The notes beneath the pieces are model-generated. The model had not been told where the DNA came from, did not search any database, and saw nothing but the letters and a program-made list of their open reading frames with translations. DNA of 64,000 bases from Incurvaria masculella (Eukaryota > Arthropoda > Insecta > Lepidoptera > Incurvariidae). The position numbers and the translations under genes were made by a program. Below are positions 19,991 to 62,789 of the stretch, piece by piece. The stretch's first letter is position 1; every line of letters begins with the position of its first letter. The stretch covers positions 17,750,001-17,814,000 of the forward strand of contig OX335649.1 of assembly GCA_946894095.1 (NCBI GenBank), read 5' to 3'.

Positions 19991-20117
19991 TTTATTTGTA
20001 TATATAATTTTTTTCGTCCTGTTTGATTGGAGTCGTCGGCTCTGATGTTAGGCCGGTATCTTTCTGCTCCCGCCCAGGATCCTCCTAGGAAAAAGAGCAG
20101 AAGAGTCTATTTCTTCC

Positions 20118-22784: not shown

Positions 22785-22811
22785 TCTCCTGCTTGTAGAT
22801 CCTCTTGTAAT

Positions 22812-24020
22812 TTATATAAGTCGTCCTAGATCTTTTCGTAATGTTTCTACTTTTTCTTGTATTCTTACTTTCCATTGTGGTGTTGAATTCGTGATACTTT
22901 TTGTTTTGTTATATAATTGTTGATGATTTGCTTCTAAGAGGGTCATGGCAGCGGCATATAGTATGTAGTTTATTTCAGTAATTTTCATATTGTCTTTAAT
23001 AATTTTCGGTATAAATTGGTTTAACGTGTTTAGGTTAGCTACAAAATGTTTATTGATTAATGCTTTTGGTAGAAATAGTCTTTCTTGCATTTCCTTTTCT
23101 TTGATTTCTTTTAAGTTATTTAGAAAATGTCGTACTAGTGGGTTTATTTCTTGGGCCAATTCATTGTCATAATTATTGTTTTCGCTTTGAACGATTTCAT
23201 ATTGTGTTTCTAGATAGTCAGTTGTATCCGTAATTTCAATAATATTATTTTCGTCAACATGTAGGTCAAGTAGAACATTTTCCATATTATCATTTCTATC
23301 AAAAGAAATGTTCATCATATTTGAATGGCCGGTAATAATATGTTCGGAAATTTCATCAGGTCTATTATCTAAAAATTGTGCAATGTCTTCTGTTGCTTCG
23401 GGCAGATGTTGAATTTGTTCTATCATTTCTGATGGAAGCATGCCATAGGTGATTACCTTTCTGGCCTGATTAGAAAGGGTGTTACCATTACATTTTCTTA
23501 TTTTTGGATTATTTGGATTTCTGGTTTTAAAAAGTTCATTTAATCTCTTCAAGTATCCCCGGCCACCTTCTCTGCTTTTAAAGTAGCAAAACATCAGTTC
23601 ACACATTTCAGCTTTATTCCACTGTCTTCTTGAAGTTGGTGGATATTCTAAATTTGAGTTCAAGGTTAGATTTTCCAGAGAATTATTATCTGGTTCTTGA
23701 ATATTACTGTCGATATTTTGTGCTTTGTATTCAATCTCATTAAGAAGTTGATTTGAGAGCATTTCATAACTAATAACTCTTCTAGCTTGAGTTGATAGAG
23801 TTGTTCCTGTAAAATATGTGCTTTTAGGGTTATCCTTGTTTCGGTCTTTAAACATTTTCTCTAATCTTGCCAGATATCCAATTCCCATTGACTTCGATTT
23901 GTAATAACAGTACATAAGTTCCATTAACTCATCCTTTGACCACATACGTCTTCTATCTTCCATTGTAAATTGATTCGTGGTCCCTCTCGTATCAGATGAA
24001 CCAGCAGCTTCTTCAGACAT
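22812..24020 (-). CDS. R2/R4-type retrotransposon: N-terminal part with duplicated Myb-like domain
   Basis: 402 residues in the same reading frame as the downstream RT part. Two homologous ~70-residue repeats: MWSKDELMELMYCYYKSKS (from about residue 26) with TTLSTQARRVISYEML, and QWNKAEMCELMFCYFKS (from about 132) with NTLSNQARKVITYGML. Trp and helix spacing suggest a pair of Myb/SANT-like DNA-binding folds, as expected for target recognition. The frame ends at TAA 22812-22814 and continues open for nine codons to the Met of the RT part. I therefore read this as one ~1300-residue ORF broken by a single stop. Confidence 0.82.
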   Translation of the reverse strand: MSEEAAGSSDTRGTTNQFTMEDRRRMWSKDELMELMYCYYKSKSMGIGYLARLEKMFKDRNKDNPKSTYFTGTTLSTQARRVISYEMLSNQLLNEIEYKAQNIDSNIQEPDNNSLENLTLNSNLEYPPTSRRQWNKAEMCELMFCYFKSREGGRGYLKRLNELFKTRNPNNPKIRKCNGNTLSNQARKVITYGMLPSEMIEQIQHLPEATEDIAQFLDNRPDEISEHIITGHSNMMNISFDRNDNMENVLLDLHVDENNIIEITDTTDYLETQYEIVQSENNNYDNELAQEINPLVRHFLNNLKEIKEKEMQERLFLPKALINKHFVANLNTLNQFIPKIIKDNMKITEINYILYAAAMTLLEANHQQLYNKTKSITNSTPQWKVRIQEKVETLRKDLGRLI

Positions 24021-24824
24021 GTTTCATTCTAGCTGCAGAGTTTCATCGTTAGTTTGATCCATGTGTTGTGCTCGTTTGGTTAAAAAATAATAATATGGAT
24101 TAACAAAATACTAGCCATTTTCAGAAAAAAATAATATAAATGTCATCATTTTGTAAATACGTCAAATTCACTTCGAGTTTTTGGAGTCTTGTAAATGCTG
24201 AGTTTCTAACGAAAATGTAAAGGGGATTTCAGATTCGTCCAAAGTAGGTTGGCCCCAGCGTCCTTGTGCACATTTTCCTTAATATATCACAGTTATAAAT
24301 ATTGTTTTTTGTTTGTGCCTTGAACTGTCAGATTCCCACCTCAGATTTTCTTTGTCGGTTATTGATTGAAATTCCGGCTCATTTAGTAAATCTTCACTTC
24401 CACAAGCACACAATGTTGTAAAGAATGCGATAAACAAATAATTATATACATCAGAAAGGATTAGTAAAAGATGTTAACTATTTTGTAAAACCACAACACA
24501 CTTCACTTCTGACAGAAATATATATATATATATATAATTTAGTATTTATTTATTGATATCTATGTAGTTATATTTATGTACAGTTATTTAGGTTTAAGTA
24601 TAGTGTGTATTTGTTGTATATTGTGTAGGAATTATGTTTCCTCTAAAGCTATTTCTCCATAGTTACTACTCGCACTACTGCTCACGATACCCAAAGGTAG
24701 ACTGGTAGAAAATGCCTCAGGCATTAAGTTGTACCTTTTGCCCGAGTTTTTTTTTTTTAGTGCAATAAACTTATATAAATAAAATGACTTACTATACCGG
24801 ATGGATAATGGATAATATTTCTCA

Positions 24825-32446: not shown

Positions 32447-32726
32447 TTCGCTTTCATGAGTGGGCAGTAGGGCAGTGAAAACCGACAGAAACCTTCACAG
32501 ATTCATTACAGAAACATGTATGCGAATTTGTGACGAATTTGCTACCTGACGAAAATCTTCCCAACCTCGCGGTGTGACCGCAAATGTTTTATTAACCTTT
32601 CACTCTGTCTACAGCACTTAAAAGAGATGACGCCAATTTATTACGAAGATATCCTATCTCGATCAACCTATATCTTTCCTAAATCTCTTATCTCACATGA
32701 TCTGGTTCCTCCATTGCTTACAATGG

Positions 32727-33023
32727 TTTTTAGGGTTCCTTAACCAAAGGGTGAAAACGGAACCCTATTACTAAGCCTCCGCTGTCCCTCCGTCCGTCCG
32801 TCCGTCCGTCTGTCATAGGGCTGTATCTCATGAACCGTAATAGGTAGGCAGCTGAAAATTTCACAGAGTGTGTATTTATTTTGCCGCTACAACAACAAAT
32901 AGGTAAAATAAAAAAATAATAATAATTAAAGGGGGGTCCCATACAAAAAACGTGTTTTTTTTATTTCTTGTACGATGATACAGAACCCTTCGTGTGCGAG
33001 TCCGACTCGCACTTGGCCGGTTT
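32727..33023 (-). repeat. Same repeat, copy 7
   Basis: Left gtttttagggttccttaacc, right cgcacttggccgg; joined directly to the next copy. Confidence 0.85.
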
Positions 33024-33349
33024 TTAGGGTTCCGTACCCAAAGGGTAAAAACGGAACCCTATTACTAAGCCTCCGCTGTCCGTCCGTCCGTCCGTCCGTC
33101 CGTCCGTCCGTCCGACCGTCCGTCTGTCACAGGGCTGTATCTCGTGAACCGTAATAGGTAGGAAGCTGAAATTTTTACGGAGTGTGTATTTATTTTGCCG
33201 CTATAACAACAAATAGGTAAAATAAAAAAATAATAATAATTAAAGTACAACATAAAAGTACCATACAAAAAATGTGTTAAAATATTTTTTTTGTTAAATC
33301 TTGTACGGAACCCTTCGTGTGCGAATCCGACTCGCACTTGGCCGGTTTT
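33024..33349 (-). repeat. Same repeat, copy 8, head to tail with copy 7
   Basis: Starts tttttagggttccgtaccca immediately after copy 7. Has a long CCGT tract at 33077-33124 and ends cttggccggttttt. Confidence 0.85.
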
Positions 33350-34106
33350 TAAAGGATTACTTTCAACCTGTATTACTACAGGTAACTAAACGTTGAATCG
33401 GTGAAATTCCCTTTCTTGGTTTTATAATTTACTGACAGTGTTCTCTCTTTCTGAACTAATCATACACTGAGAGCAAACGTTGGATAGCCTGGAATGAGAT
33501 CGAAGCCGATTCCTTGAGAAATATTATAGTTTGTAACAATACTCTACGAAATGATGCACTACAGCATAAACACAGAATGCGCTTAACAAAACAAAAAAAA
33601 GACTCGACTTAAAGCCTGATATGGTAGAACAGAGATTTGGGCCCGCGGCGACCATAGACCATAGAATATCCAAATAACACCTTCTCGACGCCACTAAAAT
33701 AGTTGCTTCAGAAAAATACAAAAAAACAAACGAAGCTCGCTATTAATTTAAAATTTCAAATGGAATGAAAGAAAGGATTTTTCGTTCCAGTCATATGTTT
33801 GAAAACCACGCAGTGTTGCCAGTTCCTGATTTATATCCAAATTCTCGGGAGTTAATTATTCAAACTGCGTCATTTGAAGGTGTTTTAAACTTAAATAATA
33901 TCAAGGTCGTTTCATTTCTCTGAGAAACAGTAAAATGATATGAATTTAATTCCGATTTGACGTTCAAGGTCCAAAACGCAAAATACATAAAAAAACGTAA
34001 CTATAACAGCCATTGTTCATACAAATACATATTTGAGTAATAAATTGGTCACTTTTATTTAATATTATCTTAATTGCTTATGAATGAATCAATGAAAAAT
34101 AAACTA
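33350..34106. other. No gene recognised
   Basis: AT-rich; nothing seen. Confidence 0.5.
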
Positions 34107-42728: not shown

Positions 42729-45700
42729 GTGAGAGCCTGGCGTACCTACTCCATTTGACGCGCTTTATAAAAAAACATCGGGGTTTTGTAAATGCACTCT
42801 ACTTTAATTGCAAAAGCTTCACTAAAAGTTTCAGCTCCGCCCTGTGTTGGCTGCTTTATCCGCTAGGAATTTCTCTAAACTCCCTATGTAAAGAAGATTC
42901 CGACCGTCGACACGGTCCAACGAGCTGTACAAAGGTTTTAGCCAGTAGGATACTTAGTTCCTCCAACCTTCACGCATTCAGCGCATCCCAAAAGGCACGT
43001 TTCATAAAAAGTTTTGATGAATCAATAACACTTCCAAATTAGCAAATTAGATAATGTATTTTGTGATGCATCAAAACACAGCATGACGCGATGGATGCAA
43101 GCCACTTGTTCAACCCAAGAATGGTATCCTATCCTGGTCTCATCGTCATCTAGGGAAGCCGGATGCCAGCGCGATGTGCTATGCTCTCGTTTGCAGGTTA
43201 AATACTCTCGTAGCATTGGCAGCAACTTATTCTATCCGATGTTATGTCTTCCACCCATCGCCATCGAGGAAAGCCGACTGCCAACGAGCGATGTACTATG
43301 CCTTCCTTGCAGGTTGAGTACCCTCGTGGCATTTGGCAAGACACTCTTTCAATCCTATGTATAGGTTATGACTTCCACCCGTTGCCATCGAAGGAAGCCG
43401 ACTGCCAGCGAGCGCAGCGTGGTGTTCACTTTTGCAGGTTGACTCTGTTGTTGAGTGCTCTTTTAGCATTAGGCAAGCCATTTGTTCAATCCAAATGGAT
43501 AGGTTTTGTCTTCCACTCTTCGCGATCGAGGGAAGCCGACTATCACCGAGCAATGTGCTGTGCTTATGTGTGCTGGTTGCAGGTTCTTTGCAACTACTGC
43601 CAAAGTGCGATGTGCTGGGCTCATGTTTTCAGGTTTCCTACTCTCGTGGCATTGGACCAGACGCTTGTTCAATCCAAATGAATAGAGAATGTCTTCCACT
43701 CGTCGCCATCGAGGAAAAACGACTGCCACCGAGCGATGTGGCAGCTCATGTTTTCAGGTTATCTGCTCTCGTAGCATCGCGCCAGCCGCTTATTCAATCC
43801 AGATGAATAAATTATGTCTTCCACCCGTCGCCATCCATGAAAAACGACTGACACCGAGCGATGTGCTGTGCTCATGTTTTCAGGTTATCTGCTCTCGTAG
43901 CATCGCGCCAGCCGCTTGTTCAATCCAGATGAATAAATTATGTCTTCCATCCGTCACCATCGAGGGAAAAGGACTGCCACCGAGCGATTTGCTGTGCTCG
44001 TGTTTTCATGTTGCCTACTCTCTTCTGCTCCGTAAATTGCTTGGTCGCTCCAGGCGGATTTGGTCATATCTTCCCCCCCCCAGTCGTAAGGAGAATCCTA
44101 TTGCCAACGACCGATGACTTAATACGAAATTTGTTCGCAGGTTGCGTGTTCCCGCCACGATGGGCAGGTCGCTGGTTCCAGTCGGGCGTCCTCCAGCCTA
44201 TCCTTATCGAGGGGGACCGACTGTCGAACAAAGGGAAGTGCCTTTCCTCCGAGGGGGACAAATTTATCATTGTTGACGAGTGAGTATTTTTCCATCGTTT
44301 TCATCGATTTGCATGTCATAGCTTTATCCTGAGCAACATTGAGCTACAAGGGCGGCGCCATCCTATGCCACGCCGCAACGTTAAGGTGATAGTCCACCAG
44401 ATCGTCCCATTAAATTACCCTTTTCTCAATGCATGCCTTAAGAATGGCCCGTAAGATATGTTTTATCCAGACACAGTTATTTGCTGCCTGATATTGGAAA
44501 CCAAATATCAAATAATTTGTAAATGTGATTTTAAAATTATTATATAGTTAACTACATTTGTATGGGGAACATAATGTTCTGATGCCTACTGGCCCACCTA
44601 GACACATCATTCCGTGTATTTTCTTATCCTTATTTAATTATAACAAATGTGATCACAACTAGGAATCTTTCAACTTTAACTTTTTTCCGAATTATTTTCT
44701 TACTTTATTTATTCGGCGATAGCTACATAACCCATCTGTGTTTTTAAAAGCTTTTACGTGTACTAAGGGCACCATTTTTTCAAATAGCGTGTTTTCATGT
44801 ATAGTGTATTTTATCTTCATGTTTTCGTATATTAAACTTCAAACTATTCATTTCAGAAAAGGGTGCCATCGATGTGTCGTGATGCACCAAAAACACATTA
44901 ATGTACTACAGTATAAAGAAAGTGAGTATTGCGCTTACAATTTAATTTACAACTACTTATTTTGTTAGGTTGTTTGTCATATTATCCCAAAATCCGGTGT
45001 GTGTTATGGGAACTAGGTTCCATCCCAGGAAATTCCTTATATTGCACAGCTATATCGAACTGGATGTAAAATACGGACATTTTTGGTGCCGCTTTGACCA
45101 TCGTTCATTCAATACTATCGTTCCGCCCCGGCGGGAGTAACCCTACTAAGTAAGGAACCTACAATTCTAAGTGGACTCCGAAGTTAGGAAATAGGTTAAT
45201 TTAATGTAAACCTACTCTCTATATATTTACTATGTTTACTGTTTTACTTCAAATAAATAAAAAAAACACGAACGACTAGTGCTTTCTTACGACATACACG
45301 GTAAGGAATGCAGTGGATTTACTTTTTTTTTTCAAGCTTCGAAACCCACACAGCGCACGATAGATATAACTATGCTTTTAATATTCGGAAAGACTCCAAA
45401 AACTATTTGTGCACGCGATCGCGATGCGGTGTGTACGAATCACATTAACTAGAACTATGAGTTTTTGTGTTTTCAATTCTAAAATTATAGAGTTTCTTAA
45501 TCTTCGAAATGAAAAGCGCGAAAATATAAATGTGATGTGAGTGTCGAAAGTTGTAATTACGTTGTGAGCAACTTTCGTTCGCTTCAAATTGAAAATAAAT
45601 TTCAACGCACAGCTTTGCCAAAATCCAGTTTTAATTTGTAAAATACAAATATGAAGGCAGACATTGGATTATGAACTATGATAATCTAAATTATTTATTG

Positions 45701-48700
45701 AAACTGGCGTTGGCTTTAATACCGTTCTATAATAAGTACGTTCTTATACCATAATATCCAATGGTAATGGACGTAATTTGTAATGTACAATCGAGGGTGA
45801 TACTAGGACACATTAATTTAAAGACAGCTGTAAAAATAATTTCACTGCAAGGCTAGACCCGATCAGCAAGACATACCTTTCGCGCCATCTGCTGTAAACT
45901 CGTAATTTGAAATTCTCCTACAGTCCCTCCTCCTACTTACTTACCTCGTAAGTAATGAAGGGGGCCTATAGTTTAACATGGAATCCGAACCACGAACGTC
46001 GAATACCTATTTACTCACAACATCAAGGTCTGCCGTGAAGAACGTAGACGTGTATTGTCGCGCAAAAGCAGTGAGAAGAACTATCCACTAGCATCGGCGT
46101 CGTTGATTAAGTTCCATAAAATGGCACGTGCCTGTTTCCTCAGTCAAATTAAGAAATATTATGCGTATAAAATCAATCTACGTTAATATAATATAAAGCT
46201 ACGTTTTAGTTTTTTTGATAAATGAACTTATATCCTCTAAAAATGTGTAACCAATACGAAGAGGCTCACATCGTTATCAAAAAACCGGCTAAGTTCGAGT
46301 TGGACTCTCACACGAAGGGTCTTGTACTATCGTTAAAGATTTACCACAAAAAAAACCGTTTTTTGTATTGGGGGCCCTTTATTTTTTATATTTTTTACCT
46401 ATTTGTTGTTATAGTGACAAAATTAATATGCACTCTGTGAACATTTCAGCTGCCTATCTAATACGGTTCATGAGATACAGCCCTGTGCCAGACGGATGGA
46501 CGGACAGCGGATGTTTATTAATAGGGTTTCATTGGCACCCTTCGGGTACGGAACCCTAAAAAAATAAAACGTACAGAAGTAGCTCTCAGCTGATTTATTT
46601 AATGTGCAAATTATGTTTACATCTTTTAAGAAATTACTCAACACCATCTTGTCACTTACATTAAAGGCTGTTGCTAGTTTGACCTTAGTTATGACGGTTC
46701 CACTACCAATATCGTCCCCGATTCTTCATCATCAATCTTCCAGTCGTCCACGCAGCTGGTAATCGAATTTTCTAGAGCGAAAGCCATCGAACAAGTACTG
46801 CACAGCGTACAATAAACACCCTCTCCGTGGCGTTGCACCGTTCCGCCACCCACGCGAACTTCTCCCGCTGCTGGGCACTGTGATCACAGGCGCAGCAGGC
46901 CTATTCCTGGAATTCCGTAATCAGGAATCAGGAATTCAAATTCGTGATTAAATTTAAATACTATGCTCCGAAATCTTTTCGACAAGAAAATCGCTTTGAA
47001 TACCTCTATAAAAGCGGTTTTCTAGTATCAGGATTCCTGATTACTGGTTACGGAATTCCAGGAATAGACCTGCTGCCCTACTCCATAATTCGGGAGGGCA
47101 CCGCCGCCCACGCCGCGCCCTGCCCGCTCGATGCAACCTTCCGCTTCATATGCATACAATACGGTGTCCGTGCATTGCAGCTTTCTGCCACCCACATGAA
47201 CTTCTTTTTCTCTTAGCATACTATACAATGCGCTCTCCGTTTCTTGTTCGCTCATCTTGACATGCTATAAACTGAGTTATCCGTCTCGTTGCAGCTTTCT
47301 GCCACCCACGTGAACTTCTTTTTCTCTTAGCATACTATACAATGCGCTCTCCGTTTCTTGTTCGCCCATCCTTACATGCTATAAACTGAGTTATCCGTCT
47401 CGTTGCAGCTTTCTGCCACCCACGTGAACTTCTTTTTCTCTTAACATACTATACAATGCGCTCTCCGCTTCTTGTCCTCTCATCTTGACATGCTATAAAC
47501 TGAGTTATCCGTCTCGTTGCAGCTTTCTGCCACCCACGTGAACTTCTTTTTCTCTTAACATACTATACAATGCGCTCTCCGCTTCTTGTTCGCTCATCTT
47601 GACATGCTATAAACTGAGTTATCCGTCTCGTTGCAGCTTTCTGCCACCCACGTGAACTTCTTTTTCTCTTAACATACTATACAATACGCTCTCCGTTTAT
47701 TGTTCGCTCATCTTTACATGCTATAAAATGAGTTGTCCGTCTCGTTGCAGCATTCTGCCACCCACGTGAACTTCTTTTTCTCTTAACATACCATGCGCTC
47801 TCCGCTTCTTGTTCGCTCATCTTGACATGCTATAAACTGAGTTATCCATCTCGTTGCAGCTTTCTGCCACCAACGTGAACTTCTTTTTTTTTAACGTACT
47901 ATGCAATACACTCTCCGTGTCTTGTTCGCTCATCTTGACATGCTATAAAATGAGTTCTCCGTATGGTTGCAGCGTTCTGCCACCCACGTGAACTTCTTTT
48001 TTTTAACATACTATACAATGCGCTCTCCGCTTCTTGTTCGCTCATCTTGACATGCTATAAACTGAGTTATCCGTCTCGTTGCAGCTTTCTGCCACCCACG
48101 TGAACTTCTTTTTCTCTTAACATACTATACCATGCGCTCTCCGCTTCTTGTTCGCTCATCTTGACATGCTATAAACTGAGTTATCCATCTCGTTGCAGCT
48201 TTCTGCCACCCACGTGAACTTCTTTTTTTTTAACGTACTATGCAATACACTCTCCGTGTCTTGTTCGCTCATCTTGACATGCTATAAAATGAGTTATCCG
48301 TATCGTTGCAGCGTTCTGCCACCCACGTGAACTTCTTTTTTTTTAACGTACTATACAATACACTCTCCGTGTCTTGTTCACTCATCTTAACATGCTATAA
48401 AATGAGTTCTCCGTATCGTTGCAGCGTTCTGCCACCCGCGCGAGCTGCTGCCGTTGCTGTGCACGCTCATCACGGGCGACGCGCTGCTCTACTCTATGTT
48501 CCGGGAGAGCGCCGCCGCCGTGCCCTGCCCGCTCAAGGCGCCCTTCTCCTTCACATACAATCGGTAAGTCCTTCGTCATACTTACTCTCTTTGCGACCTA
48601 CTCAGGCTGCGTGCGCAAAATGCGTGTTGCAGCATAAAGCCTCTCCCAAACAGAGATAGTTCCAATCGGAACTTTCGAGCGGCATGATTCTGATCGGAAC

Positions 48701-51700
48701 TTTCGAGCGGAATGATTCTGATCGGAACTTTCGGGCGGCATGATTCTGATCGGAACTTTCGAGCCGAATTATTCCGCTCGGAATATCTCTCGGAACGCAT
48801 TTTCGGAGGGTTCTCGTTCTGATTTCTTGCAAGCTAAGAGTTATGAGTATCCGAGCGCCCGCATCGCGCCGCGCACAGATTACATAAATCTTTTGGCATC
48901 CAAGAAATAAAAGCGACAATCGGCCAAGAGTTCCGAGCAATATTCCCAGCGGAATCTCTGTCTGGGACAGCCTTGATCGCTTTTACCTCTCATCCTTGAC
49001 TGCATATTCTACCTACTCTGTATAGCTAATTATATCCTGTATTTTGTTTCCAGAGGCCACGGTGACTGCAAGAGTCCCGTGTCCTCAATCGAGAGCTGCA
49101 CTGAAGAGTCGCGGCTCCTGCTCAACTACCAGGCCTGTCCCGACGTGCACGGATCCGAGAGTACAGGTCACTTGCTCGTTTCATTCTGGTAGAAAGAGAA
49201 ACCATTTTTAAAGCGCACTGGGAGTGGTGATGTCATTGTGCTAAAATGTATTCACATCAGGCAAAACACGAGCAAAGAAACAATAATATTTTGTCTCATG
49301 TTGCCAGGGATAGAAATAGTTAGGAATAAAAAGTAAAAAAAAACAATATCAGGAAGAGATAAATAATGGGTCGTAAAAGTCTTGTGGCCAGAAGAGTCAA
49401 ACTATAACCTGGGAATAAGGCTGCTATAGAAATAGAAAATGTACTTAGTGATTGGTAATTTTCTTAGAAGAGATTTTATTTTTGCTACAATTTTCGCAAA
49501 AATAAAAGCGTGCAGACACAGATATGTGTTGCTTATTATATCCAATATCAAGTCAGTTCAAACTGTTGTTTTCAAATTATTAGTATAGTACTTTTGTACG
49601 GAGAACGTAATTTTATTATGCTTATGGGATCACCTTAAGTCAGTAATTGAATAGGTTTGTTGAATGTTGAATTGAATATGCTAAAACCATGGAGGTGAAG
49701 CATCCATGGGCTAAAACAGAATACATTTGGAAGAATTGGGACGCTCTAGATGTCTCAAGGTATCGTCACAAGATATTCCTAATTGATGCCTATTTTTAAA
49801 CTGGATGATTCCTTGCTTTTTGCGACGCGTCAAGCGTTAGTCACCGCAATATGTTTCTTGTTTTGTGCTGTTAGGCACGCTAGATAAATTCCGCATTATC
49901 TGGGTTAGGGGGTTAGCATTGTCAACTGGAAGAAGATGTAGTCACGAGTATGTATGTGTATGATATATATATACAATTTACAGTCATGTCTTTGACCATG
50001 ATGAAACAGTCAAAAATACGTCTGACACCGATGAAATGTATTACGCATTTTAATGCCTGTAAAACTATTTAAAACGCATTTAGTGGGTAAGTAATTTTAT
50101 AAATTTCCTTGTTGGCTGAACATGAGAATCATTTTCCGAATTGAATGATATATTTTTATTTCAAAATGTGTAATTTCTTTGGCAACACCACCACCAAGTT
50201 TTCTATCCATGTTTTCCTTCACCATAGATAATTCGTGTAACTTACTAATTCAGAATATTAGATAGATAACAAGAGACTTGGGAACTGTAGTGAAAAATAC
50301 ATATGCTAAATATTGGATCACAGTCACCTTAAAAATAACACACAAGGGTGGCGAATCAAAGGGGAATCGAACTTCAAGGGCGGTTCAAGTTCTGATTATG
50401 GTCTTCGTACCCTTGCAGTGGAGGAACTGGAGTGCCTGGCGACGTGGAAGGAGGGCAGCCTCCGGTTCCTGGTGGGGAAGGTGCACCACAACCACGCCAC
50501 GAGCAACGAAGACCGCTACAGATGCTTCGTCTACGAAAAGACCAACAGCATAGGTTAGATCTGATGGAGTTTTTTATTTTCTATTTTGTTAATGATCGTG
50601 TAGTTATGTGACGTTCCTGGTTTGAAGATATTGAATCAATATTTTCGATGTGAAATTGAACCATCTTCATATTTTTAAATGAGCCAAGCGTCGCCGTTTT
50701 AGCTTGAGCACAAATGCTTTCGTATGTCTGGCAGACCTGTAGACCCGTTGGATTACCATTTTAGAATTCGTTCATCACCCAACCGCTTGGGGCAGCACTA
50801 GTATTTATTTATGGAACTGAACATGGATTGCTAATACCACTACTACTGCCATGTTAGCACAACACACCACATGGCAACTAAGTTACATGAAAGGAATTTC
50901 ATAAAATGCTCGGTTACATTGAGCTGGACAGAAAACATTAACATTTTTCATTGCTACTTCGAAGATTTTTTATTCATTGCGATTGTAACAACCCGGGTGG
51001 GATTAACCTTACCAGCTAGTAAGTATGGAAAAGAATCTAGAGTTTTACATGGAATCCGAACAACAGCCAGTATTAATGGTCGAAAACCTTGCCGAGACTA
51101 TAAAACAAAATGTATATATTCTTTGATCCGGGTGAGGTTCAAAACAAACCGCTGGGGCACGAACTTCTTGAGGTATATAGGTATGAACAAGCTCAAAATA
51201 AAATTAATTTCCGAAGCAAAGAAAACCCGAAGGAATTGTCCACCTTAACCCTTTCACCGCCAAGATTTTTTGGCATAATCCTTCTCAATACGCCACACTA
51301 CAATTATTTCGATAATATGCAGTCCTGAATTGTTGTTTGTTTTGTTGCAAATAGTGTGTTTCCACTGTTGAAACAGTAGACATCGAATGAACGCTAGTAT
51401 GTACTGTGCAATTATGTAAATAAAACACATTATTTCGTAATCAGTAAAGTTTTATTACTGTTTGAAGTGGAGTCGTTTTCTGTCGGATATATCCGACGAT
51501 GGCGCCTGCAAAATGCCTTGCTCTGACGGATATATACGTTCCTGGCGGGGAAAGGGTAAAACAAAGTAATTAGCGAAACTGGTCCCATAATTCACACACG
51601 CACAACATTAATTAAACATTATTGAAGATGATTCAATAACCCCTTGTTCCAGAAAATTTGCTCAAGCAAAATAGGTGTATCCAAATGTAGAAAAGTCATC

Positions 51701-54700
51701 TGTTCATGTATTTCAATACATTCCAACATTGCAACGCAACCAAAACGAAAACAAAATACAGTATCTCCAGGCTCATGCTATACTCAATTTTTAACCTTAT
51801 TAGAATAGATAATGAGGTAAAGCTCACACCATAGACTTGTGTCACTATGTAGTGTCATCAAAATAGCCAAAGTCATACTCGAAGATTATGTTTTATTGTG
51901 TATAAATACGCTCTGGATGACAATCGCAGCGTCACCGGGCGTGGTGAAGGAGCCCGGAGACGGCGTGGAGTACCGCGTGGCGCAGTCCGGGGACGCCACC
52001 TGCAATGGCCTCTTCAGCGCCACGGAGGGCTCCCGGACCATGGCCCTCAAGAGAGGTCAGTCAGTTAGCGCTTTTTCGTCCACTGCTGGACATACGCCTC
52101 TCCAATTTTCCTCCATTCCTCCCCGGCCCTCAGCGGTACGGAACCCTGCTTTCCGCCGACGCACTTAATTTCGTCGTCGCACCTGGCGGCTGGTCTTCCC
52201 ACTCTCGGTTTTCCTGTCCACGGCCGACAGTGTAGGACATGGTTACTCCAACGGTCGTCGTCTCTACGGCTGACGTGACCGGCCCACTGCCACTTGAGCT
52301 TAGCCACCCTCAAGAGAGGTAGGTAACCAATATTCTTCTTGTGAGCACTAATCGCAGGCATGAGACTTGCGCAGATTGTGCACAACACAGTCACAACAAT
52401 AACTCTTCTTCTTTGTAGAGAGGATGGAGGCCTCCCTGTGGCAACTGATCTCATCTGAGGTTCATTCTACCAGAGTCAAGTCTTGACATATACACATTGT
52501 CGATTTTCATTTCATATTTAGTCTCAGGTAAAGCTATGTAGTTTTATGTAAGCTTAAATTTTATTCAAATGCTTCCGCTAATGAAATGATGGATATTTGT
52601 GCCAACATAACATTATTTATTTTTATTCATTCATAGTTTAAATTTATTGGATTTAATAAATGAAGCTATTATTCTTAACAGAGGGATGGGTTAGGTTAGG
52701 TAGCAAGGACAACGTCTGTGAGGTTGATGTTTCCCAGTAGACTTGCGCGTCGTGACATTGACGTTGCAAACGCCACAAGGGGCATTGGCATTTTCAAGGA
52801 AAATTTATGAGGCTCAAAGTCCAATGTGTGGCAGTTACGGTTATGCTGTTTGTACATAACAGATGTTTCAGGATAATGGGCGTGGGATTCCGTTGTAATG
52901 TATCAATTTGTGATTGCAGTGTCGGTGAACTTCAAGTGCCGCTTCCCGTCGTGGATGACGTTCTCGGCGCACTGGCACACGCTGGACTTCTCCAGCAACT
53001 ACTCGTTCCACCAGAAGAACGCGACTCTGCGCATCAGCAACCAGACCGGCGTCGAGGTCAAGGTGCACTGCGTCAACATCAAGGCGAGCTCGCCGAGCGG
53101 CAACTCGGTGGCGCTCGTCGCGCACTGGCAACACCATTGGTTAGTTATTTTTTTCGTATGTAAATCGTTTATGTCAAATGAAACCGATGGACTGTATCGC
53201 TCAATTTGAACAAAGCTTGAAATGGAGAGAGGTCAAATTCAACCTGATTGATAGGAAAAGAGACGGCGAGAGATTCAGCGATGGGAACTTTATTCTGTTA
53301 TTATATTTTTTTATTTAGAGAACCCAACGGTCCCCGGCTAGTTGCATGTTTGCGAATTCATTACTTTTATTAGTTAATACCTAACTGATTTAAATTAAAT
53401 GATTCTTGTTACATCGGTGTGTTTGGTTCTGTGATTGACTGTGATGTAACAACATGTTATAAAAACAGATTTAATGCACTGGGCCTCACTACTCTAGACG
53501 AAAGAAGACACCGGGGTGACTTGATCGAAACTTTTAAAATTCTAAATGGACTTTACGATGTACCCAACCTTCGAACCATATTTACTATGAATACTAATGA
53601 AAGACTTCGTGGACATTCTTTAAAACTTAACCAAAGTAACTTCAACTCTAACGCAAGAAAACATTTCATAACTGAGTGGTGGACTCGTGGAACAAATTGC
53701 CACTAGAATTGATCAGTGCTATAGTTAACAGTGTACGGGTTTAAAAACCAATTGGACAGTTATTTTAAATTAAAGAAAACATACGTTAAGTAACCATATA
53801 GTGCACTCAACCAATGACATACACGCATCAGCTTTAAGCTGCTAGTGTATATAAATAAATAAATAAATGTTTTTAAACATGTTAAAATGTTGACCCAAAA
53901 AAACACATTTTAAAACTAAAACGGTACATACAATTTACTGATGGCGAGACTCGAACCTTCGACACTTTGCCCAAGTGTCATAAACCATAGCGGAGTTGTT
54001 AACTATTGAGCTACCGTGAACATGCAGGATCGTGCGAATACAGGTATATAATCTGCTATGTTGATTATAAAGGTGATCAAAACTATAATGGCGCTTTTAT
54101 CAAGTACTGTGAAGGACAGTGACCAAAATAAAACTGGAGGCGAAGTTGTGAGTAGGAAGTAATAGAAAAATTCAGTTTGTTTTAATTTTAAATTATTATT
54201 ATTTTTTCATCTCCCTTTTATATTACAATCTGTCGCATATTTGGAAATTCAGTAATAGTTATGTGAATTGTTAGTGTTGGCTTTCTAGGAATGCTTTCAG
54301 TGAAGCAACCTAATAGTTTACAAAGGTTTTTAATTTTAAATTAATAATATGCATTTTCGTGTAAGTGGCTAGTTTCAGGAACCGGGATTATTAAAAACGA
54401 ATAAATAGTTAATCTACCATTACTAAAACTTCCCGCTGTGGCACTCACGTGCACCAAAATAACATACCAAATCTTATGAACCACAATCGCAATCATTATT
54501 TTAATCAATTTGTGCCACTTGAGTTCACTATTATATTTGCCCTCATTAGAACTCAGTTCTAATGAAGTCAATTAAAAGAAACTTCATAAATAATGTTCAG
54601 CAAAATAATCGATCTAGTTCAGTAGGTAGGATTTGATTTTCCAGGCCTCTAGCGCCCAAAATGGAGCATTATCCCACACTTTGAGAAAGACTAGTCTAAG

Positions 54701-57700
54701 ATCATAGCATGACATACCATTGTTCACAGCGTGAGCCGTTACGTGTGCGTGGTGATGTACCGTCGCGACGCGTACATCGCGGAGCTGCAGCGCGGCGCGC
54801 CGACCGCGCGCGCCGACGATGCGTGCGCCCCGCACCACTTCAACGCCATGACAGCGCCCTACGTCACGCTCGTAGGTCAGTTGAAGGATATTCTGCCCAA
54901 TTTGCTCAGCAGCAAAAGGGGCATAAGCAAGGATTTCGATGTCATAACTCAACTAGTCTCAAAACAAAAACTACACACTCCTGGATTTGTCATAAGTAGA
55001 CGATCGGAATTCCACAAACAAAGAAGATCCGACAAGAAACTTTACCAGGAGTCGTAATACAAATATATGTTTTTTTTGTTATTTAGGTATTAAAAAAGAC
55101 ATTACATTATACATTTAAGTGCTACTACAGAAACAAAAAGAGGATAGTGATTTAAGAGTGATCGAACAACTCAGTATGGATAACATTTCTGTAGGAGATA
55201 TTGACCAGCAAGAAGGAAAATTTGCTTTACTTACTTGTAACATCTTTCATTTATACAAATTTCATTTCTACAATAAACACAAATTACTTTCTTTTTTCAG
55301 CGAGCAATCCTGAATCCAAGGAGTGTCCATACTCGGGAAAATATGAGATTACCGGCATCAAAAACCATCAGAGGAGCGTCAGATCCATACCCGAACGCCG
55401 CGATTCATGGACACCCAGAGCTCCGAAAAAATCAGCTCAAATGCAACGGCGCAAGCGCAAACACGAGAATGACGAAAGCAAACATAATCGTAGAATAGAC
55501 GTCGAAGGAAGTAGTGTACAATATAGTGAGAGATACAATTTTAATATTAGGAATCACAGCTCAAATCCGTTGCTGAGAAGTAAAAGAGCGGACGGACAGA
55601 CTGAGGCCATACCTTGTCGAAGTGATAATTACAACACGCTCGAGGTTGGATGCAACGCTGTGAAGAACATGGAGTTCCATTCTGCTTGTGATAACAAGGA
55701 TATCGTCACAGGTATGATATGTCTTTGTTGCTTATAAAGGAAAGCCTAGTTCATAATTCGTCGCCCCCGGGACGTACAGGCGTATCTAATTTTTATTAAA
55801 TTTGCAGTAGAGTTGAAAAAGTGATAGTTTCTCTGTTTTCTTTCATATTATACTGAATATAATGCGAATTATGCTGTAAAAATAACCTGGTAAGAAGCTT
55901 TGCTAAGAGTTTAAACATAAATAATAGAGCAAATAAATTAATGAAATGTATTCTGTACATCTATATAAAATCTATAATTGTGAGAAACGCCTGTATGTCC
56001 CGAGTGCGGCGAATTAATCTGGCTGGATTAGCCCTGCCAATTATTAAAAGCGTGGAAGTTTTGTGGTTTTACATGTATTCAGAATCATGAATATCTTGTA
56101 TTCGTAGTGAAATGCCCACAATTATCTCTGAATAAGAAAGTTATAAGTGAACATACTCTGTACAGAATCCTTGATCTTGCTGCAGCACAAGAGAATACAA
56201 GGTTAGGTCCTGAACTGCTACACAAGAGACCACAGGCTGCGGGTTCTGTTTCAGCGTACACGTGCCACGGCGGCTGGTACGAGGACGACACGTCGTTCTT
56301 GGTCACAACGCCGCTCGCGCGGGACAGCACAACGCGCGCCGCTACTGCCTCCTGTACCACGAGAACTGCTACACAAGAAACCACAAGCTGCGGGTTCTGT
56401 TTCAGCGTACACGTGCCACAGCGGCTGGTATGAGGACGGCACGTCGTTCTTGATCAGAACGCCGCTCGCGCGGGACAGCACGAGTGCGCGCCGCTACTCC
56501 CTCTTGTACCACGAGAACTGCTACACAAGAGACCACAGGCTGCGGGTTCTGTTTCAGCGTACACGTGCCAAGGCGGCTGGTACGAGGACGGCACGTCGTT
56601 CTTGGTCACAACGCCGCTCGCGCGGGACAGCACGAGTGCGCGCCGCTACTGCCTCTTGTACCACGAGAACTGCTACACAAGAGACCACAGGCTGCGGGTT
56701 CTGTTTCAGCGTACACGTGCCACAGCGGCTGGTACGAGAACGGTACGTCGTTCTTGATCAGAACGCCGCTCGCGCGGGACAGCAAAACGCGCGCCGCTAC
56801 TGCCTCCTGTACCACGAGAACTGCTACCCAAGAGACTACAGGCTGCGGGTTGTGTTTCAGCGTACACGTGCCACAGCGGCTGGTACGAGGATGGCACGTC
56901 GTTCTTGATCAGAACGCCGCTCGCGCGGGACAGCACGAGCGCGCGCCGCTACTACCTCTTGTACCATGAGAACTGCTACACAAGAGACCACAGGCTGCGG
57001 GTTCTGTTTCAGCGTACACGTGCCACGGCGGCTGGTACGAGGACGGCACGTCGTTCTTGATCACGACGCCGCTCGCGCGGGACAGCACGAGCGCGCGCCG
57101 CTACTGCTTCCTGTACCGCGAGAGCCGCGGCGCGCTGCACTTCGCACGATCGCCGGTCAACTGCGACCGCGCCGCCGCCGTGTTCGTCGCACAGCGGTCT
57201 CCCCTCGCAGATGGGACGTTATTCTTCAACGCCACTAATATTGGTAATTGCAGTCAAATAATATTTTTCGTAAAGCCATCTACCAGCATTTATTTCAAAC
57301 TGACAATTAGAATTTACTATTATTTTCGTAAAATAATATAAATAATAATTTGGCATAATTGCACGAAGGAACATCTTGAAACTAAATGTGTTTTTCTAAA
57401 TCTTCCATTCAAATGTTATAATCTATAAATAGTTATCGCTATGCTGTAATGCCGCTTTGACAGTTGCTTTCCTCATTGACCTTGAAACTGCTGTCTTTTG
57501 TTTCCATGTTGTTTGGTTTCCAATGCATTCGATTTTGGAATGTACAATGCGATTCAAACAAGAATAGGATAGGATCACCGCCATTTTGAATGTCAAACTA
57601 CTAAAACAATTCAACAAATCTCATTTCTCATTCAATCTTAATTTGTAGTTTACCATATTATTTAGTTATCATGCTAGGACTAATACCGAAAATTCTGTCC

Positions 57701-57881
57701 TCGGGAGCCGCAAATGGCACTCGTCAAGACATTTAATTAGTTAAAAACTCATAATTTTGTTTGGTTGTTCGCAGGAGAATGTCAAGATACATCGAATAAC
57801 CAGCCACAAACAAGATTATCCACCCACACGTTGATACTATCTACGATGTTTACATTAAATTACATTTTGATACCGAGATGA
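42668..57881 (+). CDS. Secreted Cys-rich arthropod protein, 12-exon gene (whole span)
   Basis: Twelve coding exons: 42668-42728, 44141-44279, 44857-44921, 48425-48563, 49054-49166, 50419-50553, 51930-52055, 52920-53139, 54730-54875, 55301-55711, 57013-57243, 57775-57881. All have GT donors and AG acceptors, phases agree at every junction, and the total is 1893 nt (630 residues plus TGA). Residues 1-20 form a hydrophobic signal peptide. The mature part starts CVFPPRWAGRWFQSG. Many paired Cys, five N-x-S/T sites, a basic stretch near 431-435 (RRKRK), a furin-type RSKR at 474-477, and a C-terminal hydrophobic tail (THTLILSTMFTLNYILI) suggest an extracellular, possibly proteolytically matured and GPI-anchored protein. 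The motifs CVFPPRW, KGCHRC, TFCHPREL, YRCFVYEK and ECPYSGKYE recall a conserved insect family that I believe Pfam holds as DUF7042-DUF7045; that assignment is from memory and unverified. Function unknown. Three introns carry splice-acceptor arrays. Confidence 0.88.
43090..44140 (+). repeat. Acceptor array 1 in intron 1 (~125-bp units)
   Basis: About eight degenerate tandem units precede exon 2. Each has a pyrimidine-AG-GTT junction followed by a diverged copy of the first ~95 nt of exon 2. Exon-like starts lie at 43197, 43313, 43438, 43583, 43633, 43758, 43884 and 44010 (the last has lost its AG). The shared tail resembles the exon text ending CGAGGGGGACCGACTG. Unit copies carry stops (for example TCG TAG), so they are not alternative coding exons. 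Three neighbouring units are 125-126 bp apart. Confidence 0.8.
44141..44279 (+). CDS. Exon 2: N-terminal module with CVFPPRW and WFQSG motifs
   Basis: Acceptor ttgttcgcag|GTTGCGTG; donor GACGA|gtgagt. It encodes residues 21-67, including CVFPPRWAGRWFQSGV, a GKCLSSEG loop and GDKFIIVDE. The exon is phase 1 in, phase 2 out. The preceding intron contains about eight decayed copies of this acceptor plus roughly the first 95 nt of the exon. Confidence 0.88.
44857..44921 (+). CDS. Exon 3: CHRC motif, VLQYKE
   Basis: Short 65-nt exon. Acceptor catttcag|AAAAGGG, donor GAAA|gtgagt. It reads E-KGCHRCVVMHQKHINVLQYKE. Phase 2 in and phase 1 out fit exons 2 and 4 exactly, and the joined protein reads VVDEKGCHRC and QYKETFCHPREL. 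Confidence 0.85.
44981..45184 (-). repeat. SINE body fragment in intron 3
   Basis: Minus-strand body with gcaagttcca-like decay: gggaactaggttccatccc, gaactggatgtaaaatacgg, gccccggcgggagtaaccc. No head. Confidence 0.65.
45930..45995 (-). repeat. SINE body fragment in intron 3
   Basis: ttacctcgtaagtaatgaag and acatggaatccgaaccacga match the head/body junction of the 5S-headed type. Confidence 0.5.
46280..46562 (+). repeat. Same repeat, copy 9, in intron 3
   Basis: Degraded start aaaaaccggctaagttcgag, end cgggtacggaaccctaaaaa. Confidence 0.75.
46839..47165 (+). pseudogene. Relic duplicate of exon 4, split by a MITE
   Basis: 46839-46892 matches the 5' part of exon 4 (CGTTCCGCCACCCACGCGAA and on to GTGATCACAGGCG). 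47072-47160 matches the 3' part (CTACTCCATAATTCGGGAGG, then GCCCTGCCCGCTCGATG, ending ATACAATACG). The two halves are separated by an inverted-repeat element at 46893-47075. The acceptor has changed from gttgcag to gttgcac, and there are small indels, so it should be dead. Confidence 0.8.
46893..47075. repeat. MITE family A, copy 2, inside the relic exon
   Basis: cagcaggcctattcctggaa at the left, ggaattccaggaatagacct then gctg at the right. Same family as 27570-27802, with shared interior (gaaaatcgctttgaa, aaagcggttttc). Confidence 0.85.
47166..48424 (+). repeat. Acceptor array 2 in intron 3 (~114-bp units)
   Basis: Eleven tandem units each contain gttgcag followed by YKTTCTGCCACC and the first ~30 nt of exon 4, then an AT-rich intronic spacer (CATCTTGACATGCTATAAA and so on). 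Exon-like starts are at 47181, 47295, 47409, 47523, 47637, 47751, 47860, 47973, 48085, 48199 and 48312; the twelfth start, 48425, is the true exon 4. Spacing is 114 bp with a few 109-113 bp units. Each decoy would read FCHPRELLFLLTYYTM and hit a stop about 25 codons in. Confidence 0.92.
48425..48563 (+). CDS. Exon 4: FCHPRELLPLL, ITGDALLYSMF
   Basis: Acceptor cgttgcag|CGTTCTGCC, donor AATCG|gtaagt. It encodes T-FCHPRELLPLLCTLITGD and on through ALLYSMFRESAAAVPCPL to FTYNR (about residues 89-135). The exon is strongly GC-rich in an AT-rich intron. Eleven tandem partial copies of its acceptor and first ~30 nt, and one nearly full relic exon, lie upstream in intron 3. Confidence 0.9.
48665..48776. 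repeat. 28-bp tandem repeat, 4 units, in intron 4
   Basis: Four units of atcggaactttcgagcggca plus tgattctg start at 48665, 48693, 48721 and 48749, about 100 bp after the exon 4 donor. The last unit decays into a TTCCGCTCGGAA palindrome. Confidence 0.85.
49054..49166 (+). CDS. Exon 5: GHGDCKSPVSSIESC
   Basis: Acceptor ttgtttccag|AGGCCACGG, donor TACAG|gtcact. It encodes RGHGDCKSPVSSIESCTEES and a second Cys-containing segment ending HGSEST. Phase 2 in, phase 1 out. Confidence 0.88.
49167..50418 (+). other. Intron 5
   Basis: AT-rich; no repeat or coding signal recognised. Confidence 0.7.
50419..50553 (+). CDS. Exon 6: LECLATWKEG to YRCFVYEK
   Basis: Acceptor cccttgcag|TGGAGG, donor CATAG|gttaga. 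It encodes VEELECLATWKEGSLRFLVG followed by a segment ending DRYRCFVYEKTNSIG. The YRCFVYEK motif is one of the clearest family signatures. Confidence 0.88.
   Translation, partial: WRNWSAWRRGRRAASGSWWGRCTTTTPRATKTATDASSTKRPTA
50554..51929 (+). other. Intron 6
   Basis: Apart from the SINE at 50803-51085 this is AT-rich intronic sequence. The short ORF at 51110-51328 shows no recognisable domain. Confidence 0.7.
50803..51085 (-). repeat. Degenerate SINE body in intron 6
   Basis: Minus-strand copy of the shared SINE body: ggaactgaacatggattgc at the tail, then acccgggtgggattaacctt and the gttttacatggaatccgaac block. The head is lost. Confidence 0.65.
51930..52055 (+). CDS. Exon 7, donor hit by a LINE insertion
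   Basis: Acceptor caatcgcag|CGTCACC; donor AGAGAG|gtcagt. It encodes ASPGVVKEPGDGVEYRVAQS, then GDATCNGLFSATEGSRTMAL and KR. The last exon bases and the donor GT lie inside a 14-bp direct repeat (52044-52057 and 52305-52318) that flanks a retroelement fragment. A second potential donor, GAGAG|gtaggt, follows at 52317. Using it would add 261 nt containing an in-frame stop at 52166-52168. Confidence 0.85.
52058..52304 (-). pseudogene. LINE (RTE-like) reverse transcriptase C-terminal fragment in intron 7
   Basis: On the minus strand this reads LRVAKLKWQWAGHVSRRDDD, then a segment with GRPAARCDDEIK and GEEWRKIGEAYVQQWT. That is the C-terminal tail of a non-LTR endonuclease/reverse transcriptase common in Lepidoptera. 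It is flanked by a 14-bp direct repeat, CCCTCAAGAGAGGT (52044-52057, 52305-52318), which is the target-site duplication. The element 3' end carries a short (TGAC)n-like tail at 52058-52066 next to the exon 7 donor. Confidence 0.8.
52920..53139 (+). CDS. Exon 8: glycosylated segment with three sequons
   Basis: Acceptor tgattgcag|TGTCGG, donor CATTG|gttagt. It encodes VSVNFKCRFPSWMTFSAHWH through HCVNIKASSPSGNS to AHWQHH. Three N-glycosylation sequons (NYS, NAT, NQT) sit within about 20 residues. Phase 1 in, phase 2 out; the split codon TG|C gives Cys. Confidence 0.9.
53440..53868 (+). pseudogene. CR1/Jockey-type reverse transcriptase 3' fragment in intron 8
   Basis: It reads YKNRFNALGLTTLDERRHRG, then DLIETFKILNGLYDVPN, ERLRGHSLKLNQ and ARKHFIT, followed after a frameshift by a WNKLPLELIS-like stretch. 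This is the typical C-terminal end of CR1/Jockey-like reverse transcriptases. It ends in (AAAT)n at about 53850-53868, a plausible element tail. It lies in the sense orientation in the host intron. Confidence 0.7.
53936..54030 (-). repeat. tRNA-like SINE head in intron 8
   Basis: On the minus strand it shows an A-box-like GGTAGCTCAATAGTTAAC and a B-box GGTTCGAGTCTCGCC, about 60 bp apart as in a tRNA. The anticodon arm is not credible, so I call a SINE head rather than a tRNA gene. Confidence 0.5.
54031..54729 (+). other. Distal part of intron 8
   Basis: AT-rich; nothing recognised between the tRNA-like repeat and exon 9. Confidence 0.6.
54730..54875 (+). CDS. Exon 9: VSRYVCVVMYRRD
   Basis: Acceptor gttcacag|CGTGAGCC, donor CGTAG|gtcagt. 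It encodes C-VSRYVCVVMYRRDAYIAEL and a segment ending APYVTLVG, with one more Cys in DDACAPHH. The exon is very GC-rich. Phase 2 in, phase 1 out. Confidence 0.88.
55301..55711 (+). CDS. Exon 10: CPYSGKYE, basic linker, RSKR site
   Basis: Longest coding exon (411 nt). Acceptor ttttttcag|CGAGCA, donor CACAG|gtatga. It starts ASNPESKECPYSGKYEITGI. A long polar, basic linker follows, with RRKRKHENDESKHNRR (about residues 431-446) and a furin-type RSKR at 474-477. The end is again Cys-rich (CRSD, GCNAV, SACDNKDIVTG). AT-richer codon use than its neighbours in the linker suggests weaker constraint there. Confidence 0.88.
56212..57012 (+). repeat. Acceptor array 3 in intron 10 (~152-bp units)
   Basis: Five tandem units precede the real exon 11, each with ctgtttcag|CGTACACGTGCC, about 115 nt of exon-like sequence, then ACAAGAGACCACAGGCTGCG and the next acceptor. 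Starts are 56255, 56406, 56558, 56710 and 56861; the true exon starts at 57013. Units are 151-152 bp and nearly identical, so this array is young. No strong donor ends the partial exons. Read-through from each start is out of frame, or, from 56710, meets a stop at 56967-56969. Confidence 0.92.
57013..57243 (+). CDS. Exon 11: YTCHGGWYEDGTSF; last copy of an acceptor array
   Basis: Acceptor tctgtttcag|CGTACACG, donor AATATTG|gtaatt. It encodes AYTCHGGWYEDGTSFLITTP, then ARRYCFLYRESRGALHF and a region ending FFNATNIG (about residues 519-595). This is the only one of six near-identical acceptor/exon-start copies that runs on into a complete exon. Phase 1 in, phase 1 out. Confidence 0.88.
57775..57881 (+). 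CDS. Exon 12: C-terminal hydrophobic tail and stop
   Basis: Acceptor tgttcgcag|GAGAATG; TGA at 57879-57881. It reads GECQDTSNNQPQTRLS followed by THTLILSTMFTLNYILIPR. A polar spacer followed by a C-terminal hydrophobic run is typical of GPI-anchor signals, though it could also be a short membrane anchor. An AATAAA at 58173 is a candidate poly(A) signal. Confidence 0.8.
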
Positions 57882-59802: not shown

Positions 59803-60081
59803 GGGTTGACTAATCAAAAAACAACTAGCAACATTAATTTGCAATTATTAAAAAACAGACACACACAGTTTTATTTAAGGTGGAAACAAGATTCACGAAT
59901 TGGCCATTTAGGAATCAGAATCGCGTGGCAGATACCGTTGAATGCATGGAAGATACCTCATTACTTTCCGCGCTGTAAAAAACATTAAATATAATACCTA
60001 ACATACCTAATTTTTTAATATTCAAAGAAAAGCTTCATACAGACCAGAAAGGAAATCATAGTACATTTTAGTACCTATGTC

Positions 60082-60205
60082 ACTCAGTCAGCGTGTTTGC
60101 GTCCACTGCTGGACATACGCCTCTCCAATTTTTCTCTAGTCCTCCCGGCCCTCAGCGGGACAGAATCACTACTTTCCACCGACGCACTTGATGTCGTCTT
60201 CTTCC
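60082..60205 (-). pseudogene. RTE-like LINE 3'-terminal fragment
   Basis: Same 3' end as the intron 7 insertion: shares tccactgctggacatacgcc and ctctccaatttttctctag with 52078-52110. Too short to code. Confidence 0.65.
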
Positions 60206-61508: not shown

Positions 61509-62789
61509 ATTGGTTGGGGAAAAAGTTTCTTCGCATTTTTTAAGAAAATTCAAAACATTTTTTAATATGGTTTATTTACATTTAACTAAAGTATGTAGGT
61601 ACCATTTTGTTCGATAACTTTTTGCCATCTTGTAGGTAGGGACATGATCCCATTGCTATAGAAATATTGGGACTTCTGATCAATATACCGCGACAAGTGG
61701 TTTTGGCAGTCCTCTCGTGATGTTAACCTGACACTGCCTAAAGAATTCTGAAGAGACCTAAACAGGTGGAAATCTGAAGGTGCAAGGTCAGGACTATACG
61801 GCGGATGCATTAACACCTCCCAGCCAAACTCTCTTAGTTTTTGCTGAGTGGCTAAAGATGTGTGAGGTCTAGCGTTATCATGATGAAAAACCACACCCCT
61901 TCTGTTGATTAATTCCGGCCGCTTTCTCTCAACTTCTTGCTTTAATCTCATCAGTTGTTTGCAGTAGAGTTCAGAATCGATGGTCCTGCCTGGTGGTAAC
62001 AGCTCATAATGAATAATGCCCTTCCAATCCCACCACACACACAGCATCACCTTGTTGCGAGTTAACCCGGGTTTCGCCACAGTCTGTGAAGCTTGACCGG
62101 CCTTTGACCACGACCTTTATCGCACGTTCTTGTCGTACGTGATCCACTTTTCATCACCAGTTATCAGCTTCTTCAAAAATGGTTCGGTTTCATTACGTCG
62201 TAATAAAGAATCACAAATGAGTACACGGTTCATTAGGTTTCTTTCAGCGAGCTCGTGAGGTACCCAAATATCGAGCTTTTTTGTGTACCCAGTTTTTTTC
62301 AAATGCGCCAAAACAGTTTTGTGGTCAATTCCTAGTTCTTCAGCTGAGTAACTACTGATATGCCGATCTTGCTCCACTTTTTCAAAAATGGCATCCATTT
62401 TATCCGTAATAGGGCGACCAGAGCGACGTGCATCTTTGACATCAAAATTTCCGGATTGAAAACGCTTAAACCAAATTTGTGCTACTCTCACAGACACTGC
62501 ACTAGGTCCATAAACATCGCAAATTTTTTTCGCGGCTTGCGTTGCATTTTTACCTTTTTTGTAGTAAAATTTTAAAATGTATCGAATTTCTTCATTAGAT
62601 TCACTCATTTTGACAGTACGAAAAACAAATGAGAATCACACATTTTCCTAATTTGAATTTGGAATTATGTTCTTTAAAATTTAAACTTTCAATGATACCA
62701 AAACCAGCCAGATACAAATAGTATAGCCAAAGAGATTTTATTACAAGTTCATACATACTATAATGCGAAAAGACTTTTTCCCCGACCTA
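61509..62789 (-). mobile_element. Full-length mariner element
   Basis: Inverted ends GGTTGGGGAAAAAGTTTCTT (left) and, read inward from the right, GGTCGGGGAAAAAGTCTTTT. Length is about 1.28 kb, normal for mariner. It contains one transposase frame on the minus strand. TA-rich flanks fit TA target insertion. Confidence 0.88.
61586..62608 (-). pseudogene. mariner transposase with one nonsense codon
   Basis: From the ATG at 62608 it encodes a helix-turn-helix region (IRYILKFYYKKGKNATQAAK, then RRSGRPITDK), WVPHEL, and the first catalytic Asp in ITGDEKWITYD. An in-frame TAA at 62117-62119 follows YDKNVR, and the same frame continues RSWSKAGQASQTVAKPG. The second and third catalytic Asp are in CVWWDWKGIIHYELL or HHDNARPH, and PPYSPDLAPSDFHLF. 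Total about 340 residues, the usual mariner length. One substitution (an A-to-T change in a Lys codon would do it) appears to have killed it. Confidence 0.88.

Follow-up and report, generated by a model that had tools for sequence, protein, structure and literature searches.

Amphioxus genes carry "mirages", minisatellite-like duplications of intron-exon boundaries that lie at either exon edge and that, in the accessible parts of the published reports, are said to leave splicing undisturbed (PMC3087553, PMC3902484). The mirage genes named in those parts are the globins BflGb6 and BflGb9, Adh3, PGBD5 and TnC, with PGBD5 and TnC added by PMC3902484. The BflGb6 mirage joins the 3' end of an intron to the 5' part of an exon in units of 150-160 bp, present 6 and 3 times in two haplotypes; the units are 81-100 % identical and evolve in concert, with the boundary copies excluded from this, and many amphioxus mirage units contain splice signals while splicing is reported as normal (PMC3087553, as far as its accessible text goes). 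Here we set against these systems a window of 64,000 nucleotides from the lepidopteran Incurvaria masculella (GenBank assembly GCA_946894095.1, contig OX335649.1, positions 17,750,001 to 17,814,000 of the forward strand; coordinates below count from the first letter of the window). It contains the gene for an insect DUF7044/7042/7043/7045 protein, named "aus" in two beetle records, in which introns 1, 3 and 10 each have at their 3' end a tandem array whose units include the 3' splice site together with the beginning of the exon that follows. A first-pass annotation of this DNA had stated that no described class fits such arrays. The amphioxus mirages, as described in the accessible text of the two papers (PMC3087553, PMC3902484), do fit: the insect arrays belong to that class and the host is new. 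We consider it probable that they are three mirage-like minisatellites, likely silent, as splicing is predicted to use the acceptor proximal to the exon. The arrays and the structures attached to them are as follows.

43090-44140, + strand: array 1 (intron 1, before exon 2), about 8 diverged copies of the acceptor and the first ~111 nt of exon 2 (Tandem Repeats Finder, anchored alignment, frames)
46839-47165, + strand: complete diverged copy of exon 4 at the 5' end of array 2 (blastn of exon 4 with flanks, alignments)
46892-47076, no strand assigned: inverted-repeat insertion, resembling a miniature inverted-repeat transposable element (MITE), within the exon 4 copy (arms of 44 nt, 93 % complementary)
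47175-48424, + strand: array 2 (intron 3, before exon 4), 11 copies of a unit of about 114 bp (109-114) (Tandem Repeats Finder, unit list, repeat finder)
56212-57012, + strand: array 3 (intron 10, before exon 11), 5 decoy copies of a 151/152-bp unit (Tandem Repeats Finder, unit list, alignments)

Within the 64 kb, Tandem Repeats Finder reported arrays with a period exceeding 100 bp only in the host gene, at three sites: 43329-44012 in two rows with periods of 138 and 126 (array 1), 47175-48437 with a period of 114, extending into exon 4 (array 2), and 56212-57123 with periods of 152, 303 and 455, extending into exon 11 (array 3). When each of the 11 modelled exons was compared by blastn together with 200 bp on both sides, no tandem copies of exon edges were found for the other eight. 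The share of exon sequence per unit is the first ~111 nt in array 1, ~25 nt in array 2 and ~109 nt in array 3. Repeat finding, alignments and the gene model thus bear out the initial description of three real arrays at introns 1, 3 and 10 of one gene, separate from each other in unit and age and each crossing a 3' splice site into the beginning of the following exon.

Array 3 is unambiguous. Its decoys are 93-96 % identical to the true copy, in each unit ~109 nt of exon 11 follow 43 nt from the end of the intron, and the five decoy AGs precede positions 56255, 56406, 56558, 56710 and 56861. There is a higher-order period of 455, corresponding to three units, and two copies carry one-base indels. 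The copies show concerted evolution with odd boundary copies, a likeness to BflGb6 as the accessible text of PMC3087553 describes it. Differences between decoys and exon fall on codon positions 1, 2 and 3 in the numbers 14, 8 and 12 (14 synonymous, 20 not), summed over five related decoys that are not independent; the lack of a third-position excess would be a sign of neutral change.

The unit of array 2 contains the acceptor, ~25 nt of exon 4 and then a segment in which an intron-end stretch of ~30 nt occurs twice (internal repeat score 16 against 6.8 +/- 1.3, reached by 1 of 2000 shuffles). All 11 copies have an intact decoy AG, while the whole-exon copy upstream of them has AC in place of the acceptor AG. 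That dead copy also has a poor donor (score 0.9), and for both of its halves none of 1000 shuffles reached the score of the alignment to exon 4. Only the last copy had been described as complete in each array; this does not hold for array 2, whose 5' end holds the complete diverged exon 4 copy at 46839-47165.

Array 1 is the most diverged. Its acceptors are spaced by 117, 124, 146, 49, 125, 126, 126 and 131 bp, with seven intact decoy AGs preceding 43197, 43313, 43438, 43583, 43633, 43758 and 43884, and an eighth copy, before 44010, that has CAT instead of AG. By plain alignment the decoys agree with one another to 51-92 % and with exon 2 to 45-51 %. Tandem Repeats Finder ends the array 128 bp short of exon 2, so that the last unit and the link to the exon come from alignments. 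Local alignment of three copies to exon 2 gave scores matched by 3, 129 and 846 of 1000 shuffles, and the impression that the array is unrelated to exon 2 was overturned when the alignment was anchored at the acceptor. Anchored in this way, the consensus of the seven decoys matches exon 2 to about +111 and scores 15.5 (shuffles -8.6 +/- 4.0, with 0 of 2000 reaching it), compared with at most -6 against the other 10 exons; single copies were equalled by 0, 0, 2, 0, 1, 1 and 19 of 500 shuffles. The link of array 1 to exon 2 is old and, as read from the sequence, visible only in the acceptor-anchored alignment.

A wrong copy number or false arrays in the assembly would be one explanation. The copies differ individually (those of array 1 are, as given above, far from identical), array 2 includes a diverged exon copy bearing an insertion, and array 3 has its one-base indels. 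These copy-by-copy differences argue against simple assembly stutter, and we regard an assembly artefact as very improbable.

The host gene was modelled manually on the + strand as 11 exons whose joined sequence stays open for 609 residues; all 10 internal junctions are GT-AG, and an AG precedes exon 2. Exon 1, which carries the signal peptide, was not located in building the model.

44141-44279, + strand: exon 2 (true), start of DUF7044 CVFPPRWAGRWFQSG (gene model, Pfam, orthologs)
44857-44921, + strand: exon 3 (gene model)
48425-48563, + strand: exon 4 (true) (gene model, homologs)
49054-49166, + strand: exon 5 (gene model)
50419-50553, + strand: exon 6 (gene model)
51930-52055, + strand: exon 7 (gene model)
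52920-53139, + strand: exon 8 (gene model)
54730-54875, + strand: exon 9 (gene model)
55301-55711, + strand: exon 10 (gene model)
57013-57243, + strand: exon 11 (true), first ~115 nt matching the array 3 units (gene model, blastn)
57775-57881, + strand: exon 12, final coding exon (gene model)

In the 609-residue frame DUF7044, DUF7042, DUF7043 and DUF7045 all exceed the Pfam cut-off. A protein search returned 564 homologs; the first 36 of the 120 listed share 63-71 % identity over 95-100 % of the query, and the named proteins among them are from Lepidoptera. We aligned 26 homologs of 581-681 residues (23 from Lepidoptera, 1 from a caddisfly and 2 from beetles). None of the 26 has extra residues at the junction of exons 3 and 4 or of exons 10 and 11, the two junctions that this check of acceptor choice covers; the most 3' acceptors of exons 4 and 11 are therefore those that yield the conserved protein. 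A tree built from 27 proteins places the 23 other Lepidoptera in one group (support 100), and the window protein adjoins them, apart from the caddisfly and the two beetles, a position that points to a probably early-branching lepidopteran. Danaus (0.328) and Leptidea (0.261) have longer terminal branches than the window protein (0.245), and the remaining 21 sampled Lepidoptera have shorter ones. Its branch is thus within the lepidopteran spread, so the host gene is not visibly decaying.

Among the homologs, the Anoplophora glabripennis (beetle) ortholog as annotated has the exon-3 segment doubled, at residues 77-99 and 111-133. It is the only one of the 120 listed (of 564) with a duplicated conserved segment, three further internal-repeat matches in this set falling in acidic or charged stretches. 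Self-comparison of the homologs by blastp gave no off-diagonal match, even for this ortholog with its repeat.

Other repeats of the window were recorded as well. A 28-bp minisatellite of 4.2 copies at 48665-48783 starts about 100 bp past the exon 4 donor and has no exon match. Directly 3' of the exon 7 donor lies an insertion of about 250 bp (52044-52320), bounded by a 14-nt direct repeat CCCTCAAGAGAGGT; the second 14-nt copy of the donor looks like a target-site duplication of the insertion, which resembles 60079-60201 (85 % over 124 positions) and which we take to be a retroelement end. A second repeat finder gave a two-copy direct repeat outside the gene, at 32725-33351 (spacing 294-325 bp, with a GTCC microsatellite inside), and also a few pairs of 30-42 nt. 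Long reading frames at 18372-24023 presumably belong to retroelement reverse transcriptases, and two frames at 61586-62635 on the minus strand resemble what we assume to be a mariner-type transposase in two pieces.

With amphioxus mirages all three arrays share tandem, minisatellite-like units over an intron-exon boundary. They differ from them in that the host is an insect and not a cephalochordate, in that three lie in one gene, and in that all are at acceptors, whereas amphioxus, according to the accessible text, also has donor-side ones. The insect arrays reach 11 copies, and array 2 adds a complete dead exon copy. Normal splicing is reported for amphioxus in the text available and predicted for the insect gene, of which one haplotype is represented. 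A limited literature search found no earlier report of such arrays in insects, a result that speaks only weakly for their absence. Intron gain by tandem genomic duplication or internal gene duplication, reportedly described by Rogers 1989, Zhuo 2007 and Gao and Lynch 2009, is similar in that splice signals are duplicated and surplus exon-derived sequence is turned into intron; the insect arrays, in contrast, make no new intron position and lengthen existing introns. Set against tandem exon duplication and mutually exclusive exons as described in the accessible part of PMC6071210, the whole-exon copy of exon 4 is a tandem exon duplication. It differs in its mutated acceptor and in the insertion that interrupts it, the array 2 units are without a usable donor (no GT in 46800-48424 reaches the weakest real donor), and nothing points to a pair of exclusive exons. 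A cluster of mutually exclusive exons was rejected: exon 4 provides the one complete copy, with AC for AG and no good donor.

The constant topology of the arrays, always 5' of the true exon, had been thought to call for an explanation. When a tandem duplication crosses an acceptor, the partial copies, each bearing an acceptor, necessarily come to lie 5' of the exon, and only the last copy runs on into the rest of it. The topology thus follows from geometry without further cause, and it reduces to one fact that wants explanation: 3 of 3 units cross an acceptor. The most likely mechanism is duplication combined with a splicing filter. At the origin of each array would be a short acceptor-crossing tandem duplication, which would then have grown by slippage or unequal exchange. 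Selection would purge duplications inside coding sequence, and the survivors would be those whose 3' end still has acceptor, exon and donor intact as one unit. By exon definition the spliceosome is predicted to take the last acceptor, nearest the donor, and the extra copies would stay silent intron. We read the decoys as near-neutral. All three array introns are of phase 1, which tells little since 8 of the 11 introns entering modelled exons are phase 1.

Placed at random in the gene, one unit crosses an acceptor with a probability of 0.08-0.09 per array and a donor with 0.07-0.08. The product for three acceptors is about 6e-4 when the gene is modelled with 11 exons and taken to start, arbitrarily, at 42018, a value that carries no correction for the choice of the window, which was chosen for its odd look; finding 3 of 3 at acceptors rather than donors has a probability of 0.14 and is not significant. 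One explanation for this placement is that exon starts behind acceptors are mutational hotspots in this lineage, where duplications begin more often. Besides the placement itself, many GC-rich exons here adjoin AT-rich introns (exon 4, 0.67 against 0.36 upstream), but exons 7 and 9 are at least as GC-rich and have no array, and part of this pattern would also arise if selection acted against duplications within exons. Folded as DNA, one unit per array on both strands was not unusual (z -1.4 to +1.9), and stem formation as a cause of slippage was dropped on these six strands of three units. We think such a hotspot unlikely.

Another possibility, raised in the first-pass annotation, is that the decoy acceptors form functional ladders. 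In the version considered here, some transcripts would use a decoy, run into a stop and then be degraded or give short secreted forms, and array length would set the output. Three arrays in one gene and 23 intact decoy AGs (7, 11 and 5 in arrays 1, 2 and 3) would suit this, and each of the 23 meets a stop 3 to 501 nt on, before the true donor is reached, the base entering the exon 2 decoys being assumed. Such stops would equally be expected of neutral sequence over the read-through of 252-1383 nt. We looked for conservation in six copies of array 3 (true copy included), the 11 decoys of array 2 and seven of array 1, leaving out the partial copy at 43583. With the acceptor stretch itself counted, windows at least as conserved as it numbered 31 of 138 in array 3, 39 of 100 in array 2 (71 of 99 without the odd first copy) and 17 of 139 in array 1, so by this test the peak of conservation within the unit lies elsewhere in all three. 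Furthermore, one copy of array 1 and the exon 4 copy lack the AG, and amphioxus mirages are reported, in the text available, not to disturb splicing (PMC3087553, PMC3902484). The idea that decoys tune splicing or yield truncated secreted forms finds no support in these tests, and we judge the ladder quite improbable. A broader proposal, in which exon starts recurrently duplicate 5' of themselves, introns grow from their 3' ends by taking up copies of the exon that follows, position alone decides between decoys and a true acceptor of about equal strength and array length is a heritable dial on decoy use, strikes us as similarly doubtful.

Several observations weigh against the reading of silent, near-neutral arrays. 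By a simple matrix built from 8 acceptors, most decoys score near the true acceptors, as the ladder would have it: 6.2-10.8 against 10.2 in array 1, 7.4-11.5 against 10.6 in array 2, and 5.0 (four times) and 2.7 against 5.0 in array 3. Their silence must then come from position or context. The matrix is crude, as 6.8, the 95th percentile for the 782 AGs scored in the gene, is not reached by the acceptors of array 3, the true one included. GT sites reaching the weakest real donor number 7 in array 1 and 8 in array 3, none being found in array 2, and small extra exons from arrays 1 and 3 via such sites are possible. The exon-derived start of the array 2 units varies in just 2 of 28 columns, compared with 22 of 80 upstream (9 of 86 windows are as conserved or more), which could hint at constraint and would favour the ladder. 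Use of the last acceptor is predicted from the conserved protein, at exons 4 and 11. The links to the exons are also uneven: array 2 takes up only a short piece of its exon (its single-copy local score was matched by 44 of 1000 shuffles), and an nhmmer profile of the array 1 decoys did not recover exon 2 unaided. Finally, given the value of about 6e-4, something may favour acceptors or exon edges, and the data here do not distinguish mutation from selection as the filter behind the placement.

These three mirage-like arrays, which differ in age and one of which includes a whole-exon stage, sit together in a single conserved insect gene. They extend mirages beyond amphioxus and suggest that such intron lengthening is not special to cephalochordates. 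They are also a warning for gene-prediction pipelines, which may call array copies as exons. With up to 11 decoys of similar strength preceding one exon, the gene provides a natural test of acceptor choice.

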